NCBI GenBank assembly: GCA_012798955.1
Contig: JAAZMF010000149.1
Coordinates: forward strand, 1 to 34,223
Origin: Bacillota bacterium
GTDB lineage: Bacteria > Bacillota > Limnochordia > DTU087
Direction: 5' to 3'
Length of the DNA: 34,223 nt
Below the pieces are notes generated by a model. The model saw only the letters and a list, made by a program, of their open reading frames with translations. It was not told the DNA's origin and ran no database searches. Position 1 is the first letter of the stretch, and each line of letters opens with the position of its first letter. This document shows positions 1-27,211 of this stretch, in pieces. A program made the translations under genes and the position numbers.

Positions 1-1019
1 ACTGTCTTAACGGAAAGATCCAACAAACCAGCACTGCCTAATTCTTGCATAAGGGCAGGAATTCCACCAGCTTCATCAAGATCCTGCAGATGATGAGCCC
101 CCCCAGGCCGCAAATGGCAAAGATGGGGGGTGGCATCGCTAACTTCGTTAATTAGCTCCAGCGACAATTCCAGCCCCGTTTCATGGGCAATAGCTGGCAG
201 ATGTAGCACCGTATTAGTGGAGCATCCTAAGGCCATATCTACCGTTAGGGCATTACGAAAAGCAGCAGGCGTAAGGATATCTAAGGGCTTAAGTCCAGCT
301 TCCACGATTTTCATGATCTGCATACCTGCGGCTTTAGCCAAACGGATGCGAGCACCACTAATGGCAGGCACTGTCCCATTACCGGGCAAGGATAGCCCTA
401 GTACTTCAGCCATGCAATTCATAGAATTTGCAGTAAACATACCGGCACAGCTACCACACCCCGGGCAAGCCTCATCCTCCAGCTCCGCAAGTTCTTCTAG
501 GGACATCTTGCCAGCTTGTACAGCTCCAACACCTTCGAAAACGGTGTTCAGATCTATGGCCTCTCCCCTATACCTTCCAGCTAACATGGGCCCACCACTA
601 ATCAAGATAGAGGGAATGTTGAGCCGGGCGGCGGCCATGAGCATACCGGGCACGATCTTGTCACAGTTAGGGATCAAGACCAAACCATCAAAGGCATGGG
701 CCTCTGTCATGGCTTCCACAGAGTCAGCAATCAGCTCCCTACTCGCTAGAGAATATCGCATACCACCATGACCCATGGCAATGCCATCACATACGCCAAT
801 AGTACCAAACTGTACTGGAGTGCCTCCCGCCATACGGATACCGGCCTCTACCGCAGCAGTTATTTTACCCAAATCTATGTGGCCTGGCACAATACTGTTA
901 GCCGCATTGGCAATGCCGATGATCGGACGATTAATCTCCTCATCAGTATACCCCATTGCCTTAAATAAGGAGCGATGAGGTGCCCGCTCTAATCCTTTTT
1001 TTATGACATCGCTTCTCAT
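1..1019 (-). CDS. ilvD: Dihydroxy-acid dehydratase, 3' part truncated by window start
   Basis: Reverse-strand translation from ATG at 1019: [50 protein letters not shown]..., with [18 protein letters not shown]; open to the window edge. Not in the ORF track because no stop lies inside the window. Confidence 0.96.
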
Positions 1020-2797: not shown

Positions 2798-2827
2798 GCT
2801 TCACAGCTCCTTCTACTGATTAAAATC

Positions 2828-3100
2828 AAAAATCCCGCCCCTGTTGCCAGAGACGGGATTCCCGCGGTACCACTCCAGTTGCTAGCTACTACTAGCCCCT
2901 CACCCTCTAGCCAAACACCTACCAACTGTACAGTTAGTAGCACCTCCGGCTAGAGCACCCAGTTAACGGTGGGTATCCGGCCTGTTTGTAGCCATTGGCC
3001 TTCACAGACTGCTCAGGGGGGGCCCGACATCCCGGTTCGGAACTTTTCCACCAACTAGTTCCTCTCTAGAGAACCCGCAGAAAGCTTCATCCCCATCATC
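2828..3100 (-). promoter_or_regulatory. T-box leader (proximal copy) with terminator
   Basis: Reverse strand: AACTGGAGTGGTACCGCGG (T-box), then AATCCCGTCTCTGGCAACAGGGGCGGGATTTTT (terminator); upstream stem I elements AGAGAG and GGTGGAAA; CCCCCCCTGAGC 3' of the specifier region. Confidence 0.88.
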
Positions 3101-3130
3101 GCTACGCATATTATGCTATGGGAGGATCAG

Positions 3131-3400
3131 AAAACCTCCGCCCCTAATGGGACGGAGGTACCGTGTTACCACCCATTTTCGTCACTAGCTCACGCCAGCA
3201 ACCTCATGATGCAATCCTGCATCGTTGTTAACGGAGTTGCATCTCCGGTGATCCCTTACCAGCATAGTACAATCATGCTGTTCGGACACAGCTCAGGGGT
3301 GGCCTTCAGCTCCCGCCAAATACCGCCTCTCACCCTCTGCGGTTCGCTCAAATCTGGCTTAAGAGCCTACTCTTCCCTTCATCACCTTACTATCCCGATG
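3131..3400 (-). promoter_or_regulatory. T-box leader (distal copy) with its own terminator
   Basis: Reverse strand: AAATGGGTGGTAACACGG (variant T-box), then CCTCCGTCCCATTAGGGGCGGAGGTTTT; stem I with AGTA/GAA loop-E halves and GAAGGCCACCCCTGAGC specifier region; apical ACCGC-AGAGGGTGAGAG-GCGGT. Confidence 0.85.
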
Positions 3401-3405
3401 TTGCT

Positions 3406-3434
3406 ATTATACTAGCCAAGTCCGCGGCTGTCAA
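3406..3434 (-). promoter_or_regulatory. Sigma-A type promoter driving the tandem T-box transcript
   Basis: Reverse strand TTGACA-17 nt-TATAAT: both hexamers match consensus at optimal spacing, just upstream of the distal T-box. Confidence 0.88.
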
Positions 3435-3482: not shown

Positions 3483-4931
3483 CTATTCGCCCTGCTCTGC
3501 TGCATAGGAAGCAGAAGAAATCGTGTCACCCATACCTACAGTGCTCACCGGGTGGGGCACAATATGGGCCGGTGTTACCACTAGATAATGATCGTCAAAT
3601 TCAAGATAGCCATTGGTTAACAAATCCGATGCCTTGGGATGCTCGTCCTGAAGCTCTGCTGCAAGTCCTGCCAGCTCCCTGAACCCTATATCGGACAATG
3701 CTAACTCACTTGCTTCCTCGAGTTTCGCACATTCGACATAGCCCCCATACTGGGCCTTCATAGCGTTAACTCCCGAAGCAAAAAGACAAGACTGTCGTAC
3801 ACCCTCCATAGACACTGGGTAAGGCTTCTTTAAGATCAGCACATAGTATCCTAGGTTATGCAGATGAATTCGATCAAGTTTCATATGCCTAAATAGGGCT
3901 AAAGCACCTTTGTACAAAGTGTAAGCCCGCTCATCATCTTCTATGGCCTGCATCTCGGCCTCATACCCATACTCCCGCAGTACTCGCTTAATCTCATTCT
4001 CATTGATACCGAAACTCTTAATCTCCTGGCAAATCGTCTGTAGCATCTTGGGCTCAAGCTCAGGCCGTTTCATAGGCACATACTCAAAATGAATAACAAG
4101 TTCGGGATTCCGCTTTTTCAATCCATGTAACTGTTTGACAGAATCCTCCATGAATTCATCAAAGGTACGTCCGCAACTGTTCATGGGCTCAGCGTAGTGG
4201 TAACCAGCCATAAATGCCACATCAATATTCTCACCTAGCTCTGGCAAATGTTCGGCGGTTTCCTCATCGAAGGACATAACCGATCCCTTGGGGCGAGTGG
4301 CCAAAATTACGCGATTAGCCCTGGGTGTAGTTACAGTCTCCCCGCCAAAGGTGACAGCTTCGCCCTTGGCATACTCAAAGATCCAGTTAATCTTGGTCTC
4401 ATCAGATGTCCTCGCCGCCTTAGAAACCGGCTGAATATCCAACTTGCCATTGACCAAAACAGGTGTGCTTACACCATCAACAAACAAACGGGCCTGCTTA
4501 GGCGAAAGCAATGGGGTATAAACGGTCGAGGCCGCCCCTAGCGTAGCCATTTGGTTGGCGATGATGCCAGCCTGACCACCCATGTTCTCCCGAGCACCTA
4601 CGAAGTGCTCATCAAGCCAATCTAGAAGGGAAAGATCTTCCAAGACTATATGAAAGGACTTGCCCCCAGCTAGGCAGTCCTTAAGAATAATCAGAAGATC
4701 CTCTTTACTTCTAACGGCAGTTATGTCCTCAGCCTTACCATTAGCCACCTTCTGCCAAGAGATAGTTGCATCTCCAGTCTTTATGTTATCCATTAAGGGG
4801 CCGGTAACGTGAACTACCGCATCAATATTGGTGTTAAATGCAGCAAGTACTCGGGCTCGAATCTGCCGTTGGCAGGCTTCCCGCAAGTAATCGTGCCACA
4901 AATTTCTATCTACCAAAGCGCTTCCCTCCAC
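3483..4931 (-). CDS. ADP-dependent phosphofructokinase/glucokinase family protein
   Basis: 482 aa; NTNIDAVVHV, GGQAGIIANQMATLGA, HFEYVPMKRPEL, C-terminal VSTVGMGDTISSASYA (GXGD catalytic motif). Confidence 0.88.
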   Translation of the reverse strand: MEGSALVDRNLWHDYLREACQRQIRARVLAAFNTNIDAVVHVTGPLMDNIKTGDATISWQKVANGKAEDITAVRSKEDLLIILKDCLAGGKSFHIVLEDLSLLDWLDEHFVGARENMGGQAGIIANQMATLGAASTVYTPLLSPKQARLFVDGVSTPVLVNGKLDIQPVSKAARTSDETKINWIFEYAKGEAVTFGGETVTTPRANRVILATRPKGSVMSFDEETAEHLPELGENIDVAFMAGYHYAEPMNSCGRTFDEFMEDSVKQLHGLKKRNPELVIHFEYVPMKRPELEPKMLQTICQEIKSFGINENEIKRVLREYGYEAEMQAIEDDERAYTLYKGALALFRHMKLDRIHLHNLGYYVLILKKPYPVSMEGVRQSCLFASGVNAMKAQYGGYVECAKLEEASELALSDIGFRELAGLAAELQDEHPKASDLLTNGYLEFDDHYLVVTPAHIVPHPVSTVGMGDTISSASYAAEQGE

Positions 4932-7531: not shown

Positions 7532-8620
7532 TCATTCATAGATTATCTTCTCCACATATGGGGATGTAATAGCCCCAAGCAACCCACCATAATCCAGCCT
7601 AAACTCCAAAGTGTCTCCGGGCTTCACCACATCTGATGCCTTGTCCACAGCTAAGATAGTATGATCACTAGTCATGCCTACAACCTCAATTGCTTGATCT
7701 CTTGGATATAAGTGGCCAGCACCTAGATCCTGTCTACCTAAGGCCACAATAGCCCGCTGGTGGGTACCATAGTCCTTAAGGCTAAGTTCCTCATCAAAGG
7801 CATTGTATCCCACCACTCCTTGAGGTAAGCTTGGCTTTCTGGCCACTTCGATAACTTCTGCAAAAAGTCTAAAACCATCCTGCCTTAACCCGGTGATTGA
7901 CTGCTTGGTGAGGACATCCCGACCTAGCAAGATGCTCTCTCCAATCCGCAAATGGGAAGGCAAAGCGATACCCGGCCATTGATCATCGATGATCAGTCCC
8001 AGGCAACTACTATTACCTGCGGAAAGAAGAGCCTTGGAGCCGGAAAAACCACACCCATAGGCCAAACCCGCAAGCTCTGCAATTGCAGCAGGGGTAGGTA
8101 CTACCCCCGCAAAACAGGCCATATTAGTGCCAAGGCCATGGACACGCACTCCTGGCAAGTCGCAAATGGCTGCGAGTAGGCCCTCCAAATCCCCAGGCAT
8201 TACGCCTTCCCGGCGATCCCCCATTTCCACCATGGGAATCACGTAAGCTACCCGCCCCTGCACTGAGGCACTTTTTGATAGCGCCTTAATCGATTCCACG
8301 CTGGAGCAAAGAAAAGTATCAGCTATAGCCACTGCCTCTGTCATCTCTCCAAGGGTGGGGGCACGAAGTAGCATCATGGACGCGCCGATACCACTACGAC
8401 GCAGTCTTGCTAGATTGGCTAAACGGGAATCGGCAATACCGGCCACACCCCCTACAAGCATGGCCCGGGCGACCGACGGAAGCCCACAGACACCCTTAGT
8501 TACACCAATCACTTCAACTCCCACAGTGTGACACAGCCCTACTATGGCTTTGGTATTGTGGCAAATGCTCTGTATGTGTATCTCAAGGTAAGGCAAAGCT
8601 AAGTACCTCCCCGGGTCCAA
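7532..8620 (-). CDS. Alanine/ornithine racemase-family PLP enzyme (alanine racemase N-terminal fold)
   Basis: 362 aa; YLEIHIQSICHNTKAIVGLC, GVTKGVCG (PLP lysine), LRIGESILLGRD. Confidence 0.85.
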   Translation of the reverse strand: MDPGRYLALPYLEIHIQSICHNTKAIVGLCHTVGVEVIGVTKGVCGLPSVARAMLVGGVAGIADSRLANLARLRRSGIGASMMLLRAPTLGEMTEAVAIADTFLCSSVESIKALSKSASVQGRVAYVIPMVEMGDRREGVMPGDLEGLLAAICDLPGVRVHGLGTNMACFAGVVPTPAAIAELAGLAYGCGFSGSKALLSAGNSSCLGLIIDDQWPGIALPSHLRIGESILLGRDVLTKQSITGLRQDGFRLFAEVIEVARKPSLPQGVVGYNAFDEELSLKDYGTHQRAIVALGRQDLGAGHLYPRDQAIEVVGMTSDHTILAVDKASDVVKPGDTLEFRLDYGGLLGAITSPYVEKIIYE

Positions 8621-22539: not shown

Positions 22540-22902
22540 TTACCAATAGGTGGGTCCCATAGATCCCATTTGGTATTCAGACATGGAATCTTGGCAATGA
22601 CATGGTTCGGGGGTGCCCGTCTCAAGCTGCACACCATGATCGTGATCTTGGTTGACAGTTGTCATACCATCGAACTGATGGACATGAAGACCACCACACA
22701 TATGGATTGGCGGCCCAGTATAGATACTGTATCCGTGGGAGTGTTCTCGATCAACTGTAGAAATGCCTGCTATTCGATGTATATGACCTCCCATGGGTAT
22801 TGGAATAGCTGGCCCAGAGGTGCCGGCTATTTGATGAATATGGTCTAGGGCTTCTTCAGTTGGCCCCACATAAGGATGCACATGATCCCTCATCCGATGC
22901 AT
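22540..22902 (-). CDS. His-rich YmaF-like protein
   Basis: 120 aa with repeated HxH units: LDHIHQIAGTSG...GGHIHRIAGISTVDREHSHG...GGLHVHQFDGMTTVNQDHDHG. Confidence 0.75.
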   Translation of the reverse strand: MHRMRDHVHPYVGPTEEALDHIHQIAGTSGPAIPIPMGGHIHRIAGISTVDREHSHGYSIYTGPPIHMCGGLHVHQFDGMTTVNQDHDHGVQLETGTPEPCHCQDSMSEYQMGSMGPTYW

Positions 22903-23222: not shown

Positions 23223-24443
23223 TCACCTTCTCTCCGATAGCCCTAGTTCACCAAGGCCTGTATGGCGGATTCTAGCTGAGACCTTAGTTTCGATCTGTAG
23301 CTCCTGGAACCCCTGATCATTCCAGTTATCCCTAAGGCTCGCCCATTCCTTGGGATATTTCCGCCGGATGGCTCGACCAAAACCAAAAATATCTGAGGCA
23401 AGCTCCCTTTGGGTCTTCCGGAAAACCGCCTCGATCTCATTGGAGATGACTGTGGCCATACGTCGTTCCATAGAAGCTACCGCGCTTAGGGTGTTGGTCT
23501 TACCCAGGATGTCCTGGATGTCGCCAATGTTAGCATCAGCCTTCACTTCGATGACGATCTTAAACTTGCCATCCACCAGCTCGGGCTTCACCTTACTGCT
23601 TGCCCGCAGTAGTTCTAGACCCGCAAGCTTTTCCCCACCCTCGGGCCTTTCGATAACAATGATACCGCTATTGGCTTTGCCCATCACCCAGTTGTAACCT
23701 CGAGTCTCAGGCTTGTTTAGCCACCCCACTAGCTTAGCACCTTTGAAAACTGCAGCTCCGGTTACCCGGGGGGCTAAGGAAACATAGCGTCTTTCCACTT
23801 GCCCCCTAATATCTACATCTGGTAACCGATCAATCATCTCCACCCGAATTGCTACGGGTTCGATGCCCTCCCCAACCAAGGCTAATAAGAACTGATGGAG
23901 ATCGATGTCCACCACAGTGGATAGCCCTCTGCGGCTGTTGTCCAGTATTTGCTCATAGGCTTTGGAGGCTAAACGCTCCATCTCCTGTTCAGTTTCGAGA
24001 AACTCTGACGCCATTCCATCTTGGACCACAGCCAGCTTCATAGTACGCCTAGCCTCAACATCCCTATCGAAAAAATCTAGCACATCCTCCAGTCCCTCTC
24101 GAGCCTGCGCTTCCCCGAAGACAAGCCACCGGTTATGAGGCCAATATAGTCGTCGCGACGATTGGCTAGCGAAGTTGCGAACTGCATCAAAGACCGTGTA
24201 CCCCGTGCTACTCACCAGCCAGAAGGCCCGTTCTAGACTGGAGCCTCCCGTGCTGGCAACTGCCAAAGCGGTGGGTCTCGCTATCTGGACCGTCACCTGT
24301 ACCTTTTCTGACTCCTGGGCTCTATCTACACCCACAGCTGAGACAAAGGCCAGTGACTCTACTTCCTGGAGATTCCAGCATCCACCCTGGAGCAGCACTA
24401 TGATGCCAACGGTGATCCATAGATATCGCTTGCGTAATCCCAT
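23223..24443 (-). CDS. gerC: Ger(x)C family spore germination lipoprotein
   Basis: 406 aa; lipobox LLQGGCWNLQEVESLAFVSAVGVDRA; C-terminal FGRAIRRKYPKEW. Confidence 0.92.
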   Translation of the reverse strand: MGLRKRYLWITVGIIVLLQGGCWNLQEVESLAFVSAVGVDRAQESEKVQVTVQIARPTALAVASTGGSSLERAFWLVSSTGYTVFDAVRNFASQSSRRLYWPHNRWLVFGEAQAREGLEDVLDFFDRDVEARRTMKLAVVQDGMASEFLETEQEMERLASKAYEQILDNSRRGLSTVVDIDLHQFLLALVGEGIEPVAIRVEMIDRLPDVDIRGQVERRYVSLAPRVTGAAVFKGAKLVGWLNKPETRGYNWVMGKANSGIIVIERPEGGEKLAGLELLRASSKVKPELVDGKFKIVIEVKADANIGDIQDILGKTNTLSAVASMERRMATVISNEIEAVFRKTQRELASDIFGFGRAIRRKYPKEWASLRDNWNDQGFQELQIETKVSARIRHTGLGELGLSERR

Positions 24444-24445
24444 GC

Positions 24446-25561
24446 TCAGCCCCCTCTTTTGACCAACCGCTCCGCCATTCTACGAATTAGTGCCATCATG
24501 TAGAGAAATAGTGGAGTGGCGACAGTTACCAGAAAACTGATTGCCCCAAACCGTGGAAGGGTAGAAAAGCTAGAAAGGTCTATGGTACTCCTAAATACCC
24601 ATAAAGCCAAAGCACCAACTAACGCGCCCACGGGATAAGCCAACACTCGCAGCTCCGATAGGCGAAACCATTGGGCAATCCCCAGCATAGCTGCCCATAG
24701 GAAAAGAGCTTGCTTCACACCGGCACTCAGCGTCCAGGCAACTAAGGGAATCACTTCGAGTCGCTCAGCCACCGACGATATTCGAATCACCCTACCAAGA
24801 CTAAAGGCAGGCATGATCAAAGTAGACATGATGGGGCCAAATACTGCCGCCAAAACCGTGGCAAACCAAGTGAAAAGAAAGCCAGCTAGCAGGAAGGCAT
24901 AGACTACCATTTTGCCCGCTTCCTGGGGCCTATCCATATAGGGAATCATCATGGTCATAACCACCAACTCACCAAAAATGGCGAAGGAGAGCAACATAGC
25001 ATCCTGTACTGGCAGCCACCCCTGGGCCATAGTCGGTAGAAGGTTCCCAAGATCCATAAGGCCAAGAGGGAAGACCAGTAAGAGCCCCAGCAATACAAGG
25101 GTAATCCCGAAACTGACAGAACCGGCCCGCGCCAGTACCTCAAGACCATTACGGGCGCTATTGGCACAAAGGAATGTGAGCATAACCACAAAAACCCACA
25201 GGGGAGTTTCGGGCATAATTGTGGAAACATATGCCGCACTGCCAATGTGAGCCGTATAAGCTGACTGATGAAGAAAAAACACTATGAGCATGAGCCCCAC
25301 TATACGTCCCAACCATGGCCCCAGAATCACTTGGCTGTATTCAATGATCGTCATGCCAGGAAACATGCTACTAAGACGCACTACAAGTAACCCCCAAGCT
25401 AGGGCCAATAGGGTACTAAGTGCGATGGCGATCCAGGCATCGTTGTCAACTGATGTCCCAGAGATGGTAGGACAGTCGATCAGCATGGCCACTAGGCGCG
25501 CCAATACCAACAGAGCTAGAAACTGTCTAGAGCTGATCCTGCCACCCTCGAGATCTGCCAA
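24446..25561 (-). CDS. gerB: GerAB/ArcD/ProY-type endospore germination permease
   Basis: 371 aa multi-TM protein; RISSRQFLALLVLARL..., FPGMTIIEYSQVILGPWLGRIVG. Confidence 0.9.
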   Translation of the reverse strand: MADLEGGRISSRQFLALLVLARLVAMLIDCPTISGTSVDNDAWIAIALSTLLALAWGLLVVRLSSMFPGMTIIEYSQVILGPWLGRIVGLMLIVFFLHQSAYTAHIGSAAYVSTIMPETPLWVFVVMLTFLCANSARNGLEVLARAGSVSFGITLVLLGLLLVFPLGLMDLGNLLPTMAQGWLPVQDAMLLSFAIFGELVVMTMMIPYMDRPQEAGKMVVYAFLLAGFLFTWFATVLAAVFGPIMSTLIMPAFSLGRVIRISSVAERLEVIPLVAWTLSAGVKQALFLWAAMLGIAQWFRLSELRVLAYPVGALVGALALWVFRSTIDLSSFSTLPRFGAISFLVTVATPLFLYMMALIRRMAERLVKRGG

Positions 25562-25566
25562 TAGAC

Positions 25567-27211
25567 TTACCCCCTCTGTCTAGAGCCCTTGGGTCGCTTC
25601 TTAGGTGGCCTTGGCATCTGTTTGGGATCCTCCCGAATATACTCCTGTTTCACCGTGGAACGAGGCCGTGTATTCATCATCCACAACGGGGCCCTAACTA
25701 GAGCATCTTTCCACTCTGAGAAGATCAACGGTGATACTGGTTCTAGATAAGGCACGCCAAAGGAGCGCAGCGACAACATATGAATGAGCATGGCGGACAG
25801 GCCCATGATCACCCCAAAAAGGCCTAGACTACCAGCCAGCAATAGCAGAGGAAAGCGCAACAGGTGTACACTGATAGCCATGCTATAGACAGGGCTGGCA
25901 AAGGAGGCTATAGCCGTGGCAGCCACCACGATCACCATTGCAGAAGACACCAACCCTGCCCGGACCGCGGCTTCTCCCAGGATGAGTGCACCTACTATGC
26001 TGATGGCAGGGCCAATTACCTTAGGCAGCCGAATGCCAGCCTCCCTTAGCATCTCGAAACTTAGCTCCAAGAAGATGGCCTCAACTATGGCCCCAAAGGG
26101 GACTCCCTCCCTTTGGGCAGCAATACTAAGAATCAAGGGGGTGGGCAAGAGTTCCTGATGAAAAGAAGTAATGGCAACATAAAAGGACGGCAGGGTTAAG
26201 GGAGATAAACATGGCCATCAAACGCAAGAGTCGGATAAACGAACCCGTCATGTAGCGTTCATAGTAGTCTTCACTGGCCACCAGAAACTGTGTAAATGTT
26301 GCTGGCACTACCAAGGCAAAGGGTGTCCCCTCGGTGATAATGACGACTCTACCCTCGAGCAAACCCGCAGCCGCCTTATCCGGCCGCTCCGTTCTCAACA
26401 CAGTGGGAAACGGAGAATATGGAGCATCTTCGATGTACTCCTCGATGTAGCCGCTTTCGAAAATTGCATCTACTTCAATAGACTTGAGTCGGTGACGGAC
26501 TTCCTCCAATAGCTCGTTCTCGGCAATGCCCTTAACATACGCAAGAGTGATGGTAGTCTTGGTCACCGCCCCAATCTGAAATTCCTCCATCCACAGCTGA
26601 GGGGAGGTGATAATGCGCCTGAGCATACTGGTGTTGATCCGATAGTTCTCCACAAAACCCTCTCGGGACCCACGGATGGATGATTCTGTCCCGGGTTCGC
26701 TGACATTTCTTTCTGCCCATCCCCTTACTTCGGCCGCTAGGCCCCGAGGCACGCCCTGGATCAAGATAACGCAAAACCCGTTAATCAGATATTGGAGGAT
26801 CTTCTCTATACTATCTGCTTCTTGCATCCCAGTATTCTGAATCAGGCTCTGCCTGAGCAACTCATACGCGGCTACTCCATCAGGGGCTTTCACCGACTTT
26901 TGGGGTGGCTCTTCTGCAATAGGCCGAAGTATCCCAATACCCATAAAGGTAGTATCAACCATACCATCCAAATGGGATATCAAGATTTCCACCTTGGGGT
27001 TTGCCCCTAGTCTCATATACCGGAAGGTCAAGTCAGGGCTATTGCCAAAGGCTGCCCTTATCTGCTCCTCGGTATCTTTGAGATCACCGGTGAGGGTCTC
27101 CGATTTCACATAATCTTGAATCTCACTAAAGCTAGCATCAGTGAGATCCTTGGGTTGGCACTGGCGCCTACGGCGCAACTGCCACAATATCCGCTTTATC
27201 ACGTGGACCAC
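25567..27211 (-). pseudogene. gerA: GerA family spore germination protein interrupted by a +1 frameshift (ORFs 26126-27211 and 25567-26148)
   Basis: N-terminal ORF ends ...SFIRLLRLMAMFISL-NPAVLLCCHYFF...; the other frame continues LPSFYVAITSFHQELLPTPLILSIAAQREGVPFGAIVEAIFLELSFEMLREAGIRLP. Removing one nt near 26196-26197 restores the frame. Confidence 0.88.

Follow-up and report, generated by a model that had tools for sequence, protein, structure and literature searches.

Here we describe two T-box units arranged in series on the minus strand of a 34,223-nucleotide stretch of DNA (the window) from a little-known group of Bacillota. Both units contain the alanine codon GCC at the specifier position and UGGU in the T-box sequence, and together they lie between a single promoter and an aminotransferase gene; the cognate tRNA-Ala is encoded in the same genome and the pair is conserved among relatives. 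We consider it very probable that, under alanine starvation, transcription has to clear two antitermination checks in series before this enzyme, a probable alanine aminotransferase, is made.

Structure of the tandem leader

The original prediction of two T-box units on the minus strand was borne out by an Infernal search with the Rfam model RF00230, which scored both units rather than one, each over the full model (positions 1-219 of 219; Table 1). The E-values are far beyond chance and both matches recur in relatives. The units had also been described as complete, which holds for the full-length matches but not for the AGUA/GAA loop E that unit 2 lacks. The gathering score of RF00230 in Rfam is 93 bits and, because both units fall just under it, a default Rfam scan of the whole window returned zero RNA matches. 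Genome-wide there are 12 T-box matches, four of them below the gathering score, and the only two that lie side by side are the aminotransferase pair. Two further T-boxes of the genome score under 93 bits, those of valS (L010, 85.4 bits) and metS (L012, 73.0 bits). T-box counts made at the default threshold in such genomes are likely to be too low.

Table 1. Features of the tandem leader and its gene, in window coordinates
Feature	Position	Strand	Details
Promoter	3406..3434	-	-35 TTGACA 3434-3429, 17-nt spacer, -10 TATAAT 3411-3406
T-box unit 1, canonical type	3145..3391	-	RF00230, 90.4 bits, E 3.2e-20
Unit 1 specifier codon GCC (Ala)	3301..3303	-	loop context GAAG-GCC-A
Unit 1 T-box sequence GGGUGGUAACACG	3162..3174	-	UGGU 3171-3168
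Unit 1 intrinsic terminator	3134..3159	-	11-bp stem, -21.7 kcal/mol, short U run (UUUUC)
T-box unit 2, variant with loop E in neither Stem I nor Stem II	2846..3108	-	RF00230, 76.2 bits, E 1.5e-16
Unit 2 specifier codon GCC (Ala)	3021..3023	-	register as in unit 1
Unit 2 T-box sequence GAGUGGUACCGCG	2863..2875	-	UGGU 2872-2869
Unit 2 intrinsic terminator	2827..2864	-	17-bp stem, -25.8 kcal/mol
Ribosome-binding site AAGGAG (likely)	2807..2812	-	9 nt before ATG
Aminotransferase, class I/II PLP, 404 aa	1583..2797	-	Pfam PF00155 E 3e-40

Each unit was found to have an intrinsic terminator of its own, as had been predicted, and in both a competing antiterminator can form (-9.9 kcal/mol in unit 1 and -10.5 kcal/mol in unit 2, folded in isolation). 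The terminators are approximately 12-15 kcal/mol more stable than the antiterminators when folded in isolation and thus outweigh them, so that the default state is expected to be off, as a T-box switch needs. The AAGGAG motif, or a similar purine-rich site, precedes the start codon in relatives as well.

Several other features of the window were recorded. At 3483-4931 (minus strand) is a member of the ADP-dependent phosphofructokinase/glucokinase family (PF04587, E 2.9e-70; under the curated equivalog cut-offs); in L053 the corresponding leader likewise has a gene of similar appearance upstream of it. An amino acid racemase akin to the ornithine racemase Orr is encoded at 7532-8620 (minus strand; E 5.6e-92, below the cut-off), and an ORF of 120 aa with a very high histidine content and similar stretches repeated lies at 22540-22902 (minus strand). 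The region 23223-27211 (minus strand) is, by its appearance, what we take to be a spore germination operon of the gerA type; its GerAA-like gene appears to be divided into two overlapping ORFs (26126-27211 and 25567-26148, minus strand), which suggests a frameshift or an assembly error.

Predicted alanine specificity and the downstream enzyme

To set the register of the specifier, the other ten T-boxes of the genome were used and the genes that follow them were identified. Specifier and downstream gene agreed in all ten: UAC/tyrS, UUC/DAHP synthase, CUC/leuS, UCC/serS, CUC/acetolactate synthase, ACC/thrS, AUC/ileS, UUC/pheS, GUC/valS and AUG/metS. Read in this register, units 1 and 2 alike present GCC (alanine), an assignment that is new relative to the original prediction and from which both units are judged to be specific for alanine. 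The same codon occupies the specifier position in every readable T-box on the aminotransferase gene, whether single or paired, the specifiers of several relatives' units having been read by eye from the sequence. The UGGU of both units is complementary to the ACCA end of a tRNA-Ala with A73. Such a tRNA, with anticodon GGC, is encoded in the genome (its gene runs to the end of a contig, where ...CATCTCC-A-C can be read), and the tRNA-Ala(CGC) of the genome also has A73. No T-box of the genome outside the pair reads alanine in the calibrated register, and the search of the genome with RF00230 gave no match at alaS. UGGU opposite A73 is likewise found in published alaS T-boxes (PMC4695836), while GCC accounts for 9% of alanine T-boxes in TBDB, compared with 72% for GCU (PMC7778990).

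The gene downstream of the T-boxes encodes an aminotransferase, as the original prediction had it, and its class I/II fold family is clear from sequence. Its closest family models include MocR regulators; at 404 aa the protein is too short to hold the MocR DNA-binding domain. Among solved structures, the nearest are multi-substrate aminotransferases from archaea, a LysN-type 2-aminoadipate transaminase and an alanine-glyoxylate transaminase. Sequence cannot name the product of such an enzyme; its regulation indicates that this is most likely alanine. It is improbable that the enzyme makes something else and that alanine starvation acts as a proxy, for instance for valine or aminoadipate supply, with alanine as the amino donor. 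The multi-substrate character of the family and the presence of ilvD two genes downstream in the window would fit such a role, but an alanine codon is found in all readable leaders of the gene across many Bacillota lineages, and an enzyme that consumed alanine as donor would deepen the very shortage that turns it on. The genome has an alanine dehydrogenase gene as well, so that the aminotransferase, even with alanine as its probable product, is not the sole possible source of this amino acid.

Conservation and divergence of the two units

Beyond the source genome, ten genomes from its family and order encode homologues of the aminotransferase, and further homologues were found in the wider Bacillota. 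The T-box pair is present in all nine family genomes in which the region is intact (the window, L043-L049 and L051) and also at L052, L055, L056, L062, L093 and L178, giving a total of 15 distinct loci. At L055 the same strand bears a third T-box match (541-848, minus strand), separated from the tandem pair by the aminotransferase gene; it presumably serves the next gene. A single T-box, also with GCC, precedes at least 21 other homologues with comparable leaders, including those of Dethiobacter, Syntrophomonadaceae and other Clostridia MAGs. No convincing T-box motif was seen at the archaeal, actinobacterial and most other homologues (41-47% identity).

The two units belong to different structural types. 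In the window and most relatives, the specifier loop of unit 1 carries a canonical loop E, AGUA facing GAA, and several relatives have a loop E in Stem II too. Unit 2 lacks the specifier-loop motif in each of ten sequences from the family and related genomes, and in all family members it is without loop E in Stem II as well. Loop E is typical of most T-boxes, not of all, and is no absolute criterion; unit 2 therefore remains a T-box, as a variant. Compensatory changes occur in 14 of the 26 predicted pairs of its Stem I among ten sequences, a count taken over partly related sequences that is not a significance test, and they indicate that this stem is a real conserved structure. Glycyl T-boxes without any Stem II have been described (PMC4695836). 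The duplex between GCC and the anticodon GGC comprises three G-C pairs, and we infer that its strength may account for the ability of unit 2 to manage without loop E.

The T-box sequence also differs steadily between the units across the family, being GGGUGGUAACACG in unit 1 and GAGUGGUACCGCG in unit 2. In the window the units are 63% identical, as aligned with ends untrimmed. Their relationships were examined in a tree of 51 T-box units, based on an alignment of some 230 columns in which deep branches are poorly resolved. One group (UFBoot 100, FastTree 0.97) holds every unit 2 along with 13 of the 15 single T-boxes in the tree. Most unit 1s join the single T-box of L053, on the side of the T-boxes for other amino acids; unit 1 of L093 and the sequence from L097 are placed elsewhere. 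A recent duplication in place was rejected as the source of the pair, given the 63% identity and the clustering of unit 2, not unit 1, with the single T-boxes of other lineages. The safe conclusion from these comparisons is that the units are not recent copies of one another; they may have arisen separately or by a very old duplication. One tentative reading, which we rate as possible but not as the likelier case, is that a canonical T-box and one lacking loop E in both Stem I and Stem II, each with its own ancestry, were joined on one gene as a heterotypic tandem in which both read tRNA-Ala(GGC), and that their differing affinities give a two-threshold response to alanine starvation. If true, the leader would have two thresholds instead of one curve simply squared.

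The state of unit 1 varies within the family. In the source genome, the U run after its terminator consists of four U followed by C, and the run in eight family relatives is four to seven long, mostly five or more; the AG-bulge region reads GAGCGA, not AGAGA. In known T-boxes the Stem I tip contacts the tRNA elbow through its AG-bulge/GGUG part. This part is gone in unit 1 of the sister species (L043, 178-412; 61.9 bits), which is possibly a natural decay intermediate. As the tip is more degraded there, it may be that unit 1 leaks or is being eroded in the source genus. A stronger version of this view, that unit 2 alone works and that unit 1 is a decaying extra copy adding little control in the genus, seems to us improbable, slightly more so than a product other than alanine. 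It would accommodate the weak U run in the source genome, the off-consensus tip, which is further off in L043, and the fact that a single T-box of the unit-2 type is the usual arrangement in other lineages. Against it, unit 1 has the higher score of the two in the window, and its specifier, loop E, T-box sequence and terminator are largely kept over nine family genomes, the enzymes of which are 73-82% identical to that of the window.

Transcript organization and proposed response

A single near-consensus promoter (TTGACA-17-TATAAT) had been proposed for the pair, and a sequence scan confirmed a sigma-70-type site upstream of unit 1 that scores 12/12 against this consensus. Each of the nine family genomes whose upstream sequence is intact has a 12/12 site directly ahead of unit 1. 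The scan of the leader region of the window yielded no other promoter-like site; the spacer between the units has one in none of nine family genomes, and a 9/12 site occurs inside unit 1 in two of the nine, which is the level of chance matches. These data support, short of proof, the placement of both units on one transcript. It is very unlikely that unit 2 has a promoter of its own and that the two terminators act on separate transcripts: the spacer in the window does contain CATAAT, placed as a possible -10 would be, but this has no matching -35, the motif is not kept in the spacers of relatives, and the scan found only the one site.

Reading the specifier loops as glycine (GGC) or proline (CCC) codons was rejected, as only GCC is invariant among relatives and its flanks vary. 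In ten aligned unit 2 sequences GCC is followed by C or G and preceded by G or A, and in many unit 1 relatives the base before GCC, which would be the first G of GGC, is A. As tRNA-Gly has U73, a T-box for it would need UGGA, a further point against glycine. That the units sense different tRNAs, for example glycine or proline in one of them, and form a two-amino-acid AND gate is the least credible of the alternatives: GGC does overlap the loop of unit 1 and CCC that of unit 2, and the two T-boxes of the Clostridium difficile homoserine dehydrogenase gene are presumed to read different tRNAs (PMC11477304), but the variable flanks and the fit of UGGU to A73, found in both tRNA-Ala(GGC) and tRNA-Ala(CGC), speak for alanine in both.

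The favoured reading is two serial checks on alanine. One transcript would start at the promoter and run through two T-boxes, each for tRNA-Ala(GGC), which we infer to bind tRNA independently of one another. When alanine is plentiful, charged tRNA-Ala would sit on the GCC specifier, its blocked 3' end would be unable to pair with UGGU, and the terminator of each unit would form and stop RNA synthesis. When alanine is scarce, an uncharged tRNA-Ala would bridge the specifier and antiterminator of unit 1 and a second would do likewise in unit 2, such that only transcripts past both terminators would reach the aminotransferase gene. Serial switches for the same ligand are expected to be 'pseudo-cooperative' (PMC9481103; PMC12452182). 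By analogy, the two checks would be expected to reduce leak and, if the units are equally sensitive, to give a steeper response (PMC9481103, PMC12452182), in line with the steeper or more stringent response of the original prediction. Were the sensitivities unequal, which the anatomy of the units allows, the less sensitive unit would set the threshold.

The original prediction regarded tandem T-boxes as known but uncommon. Tandem T-boxes are indeed well documented, and 'uncommon' is fair for alanine, but a 2025 survey counts T-boxes as one of the riboswitch families for which tandem arrangement shows significant enrichment (PMC12452182). The tandem T-boxes of Bacillota in that survey precede trp, leu/ilv, thrS, glnQ/artP (transport) and met genes, and like the present pair they comprise two serial units with their own terminators before an amino-acid gene. 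Here, in contrast, both units read alanine GCC and their target gene encodes a class I/II aminotransferase; the words 'alanine' and 'alaS' are absent from the main text of the survey. The alaS T-boxes of Bacillus subtilis and Clostridium acetobutylicum share the alanine specificity and the UGGU opposite A73, and that of B. subtilis resembles unit 2 in lacking the Stem II loop E, but these are single units with the specifier GCU, rather than GCC, and a synthetase target (PMC4695836). Leaders of alaS are able to discriminate against tRNA-Ala of foreign origin (PMC4695836). Tandem TPP switches are similar in being serial, independent switches for one ligand with an expected sharper response (PMC9481103); they combine two alike units, whereas the present leader has tRNA-sensing ON switches of two distinct T-box subtypes. 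The literature searched, with the two main early T-box surveys outside its scope, gave nothing relevant on an alanine T-box preceding an aminotransferase gene.

The leader is a new example of known regulation and no new mechanism; the pairing of two T-box subtypes is unusual. It offers a conserved natural pair for the same tRNA, with loop E in only one unit, beside many relatives with one unit. The mode of action of tandem T-boxes is a stated open question (PMC7583486), and a comparison between leaders of this gene that carry one unit and those that carry two makes it open to test. Finally, this regulation points to alanine as the probable product of aminotransferases that are unnameable from sequence alone.
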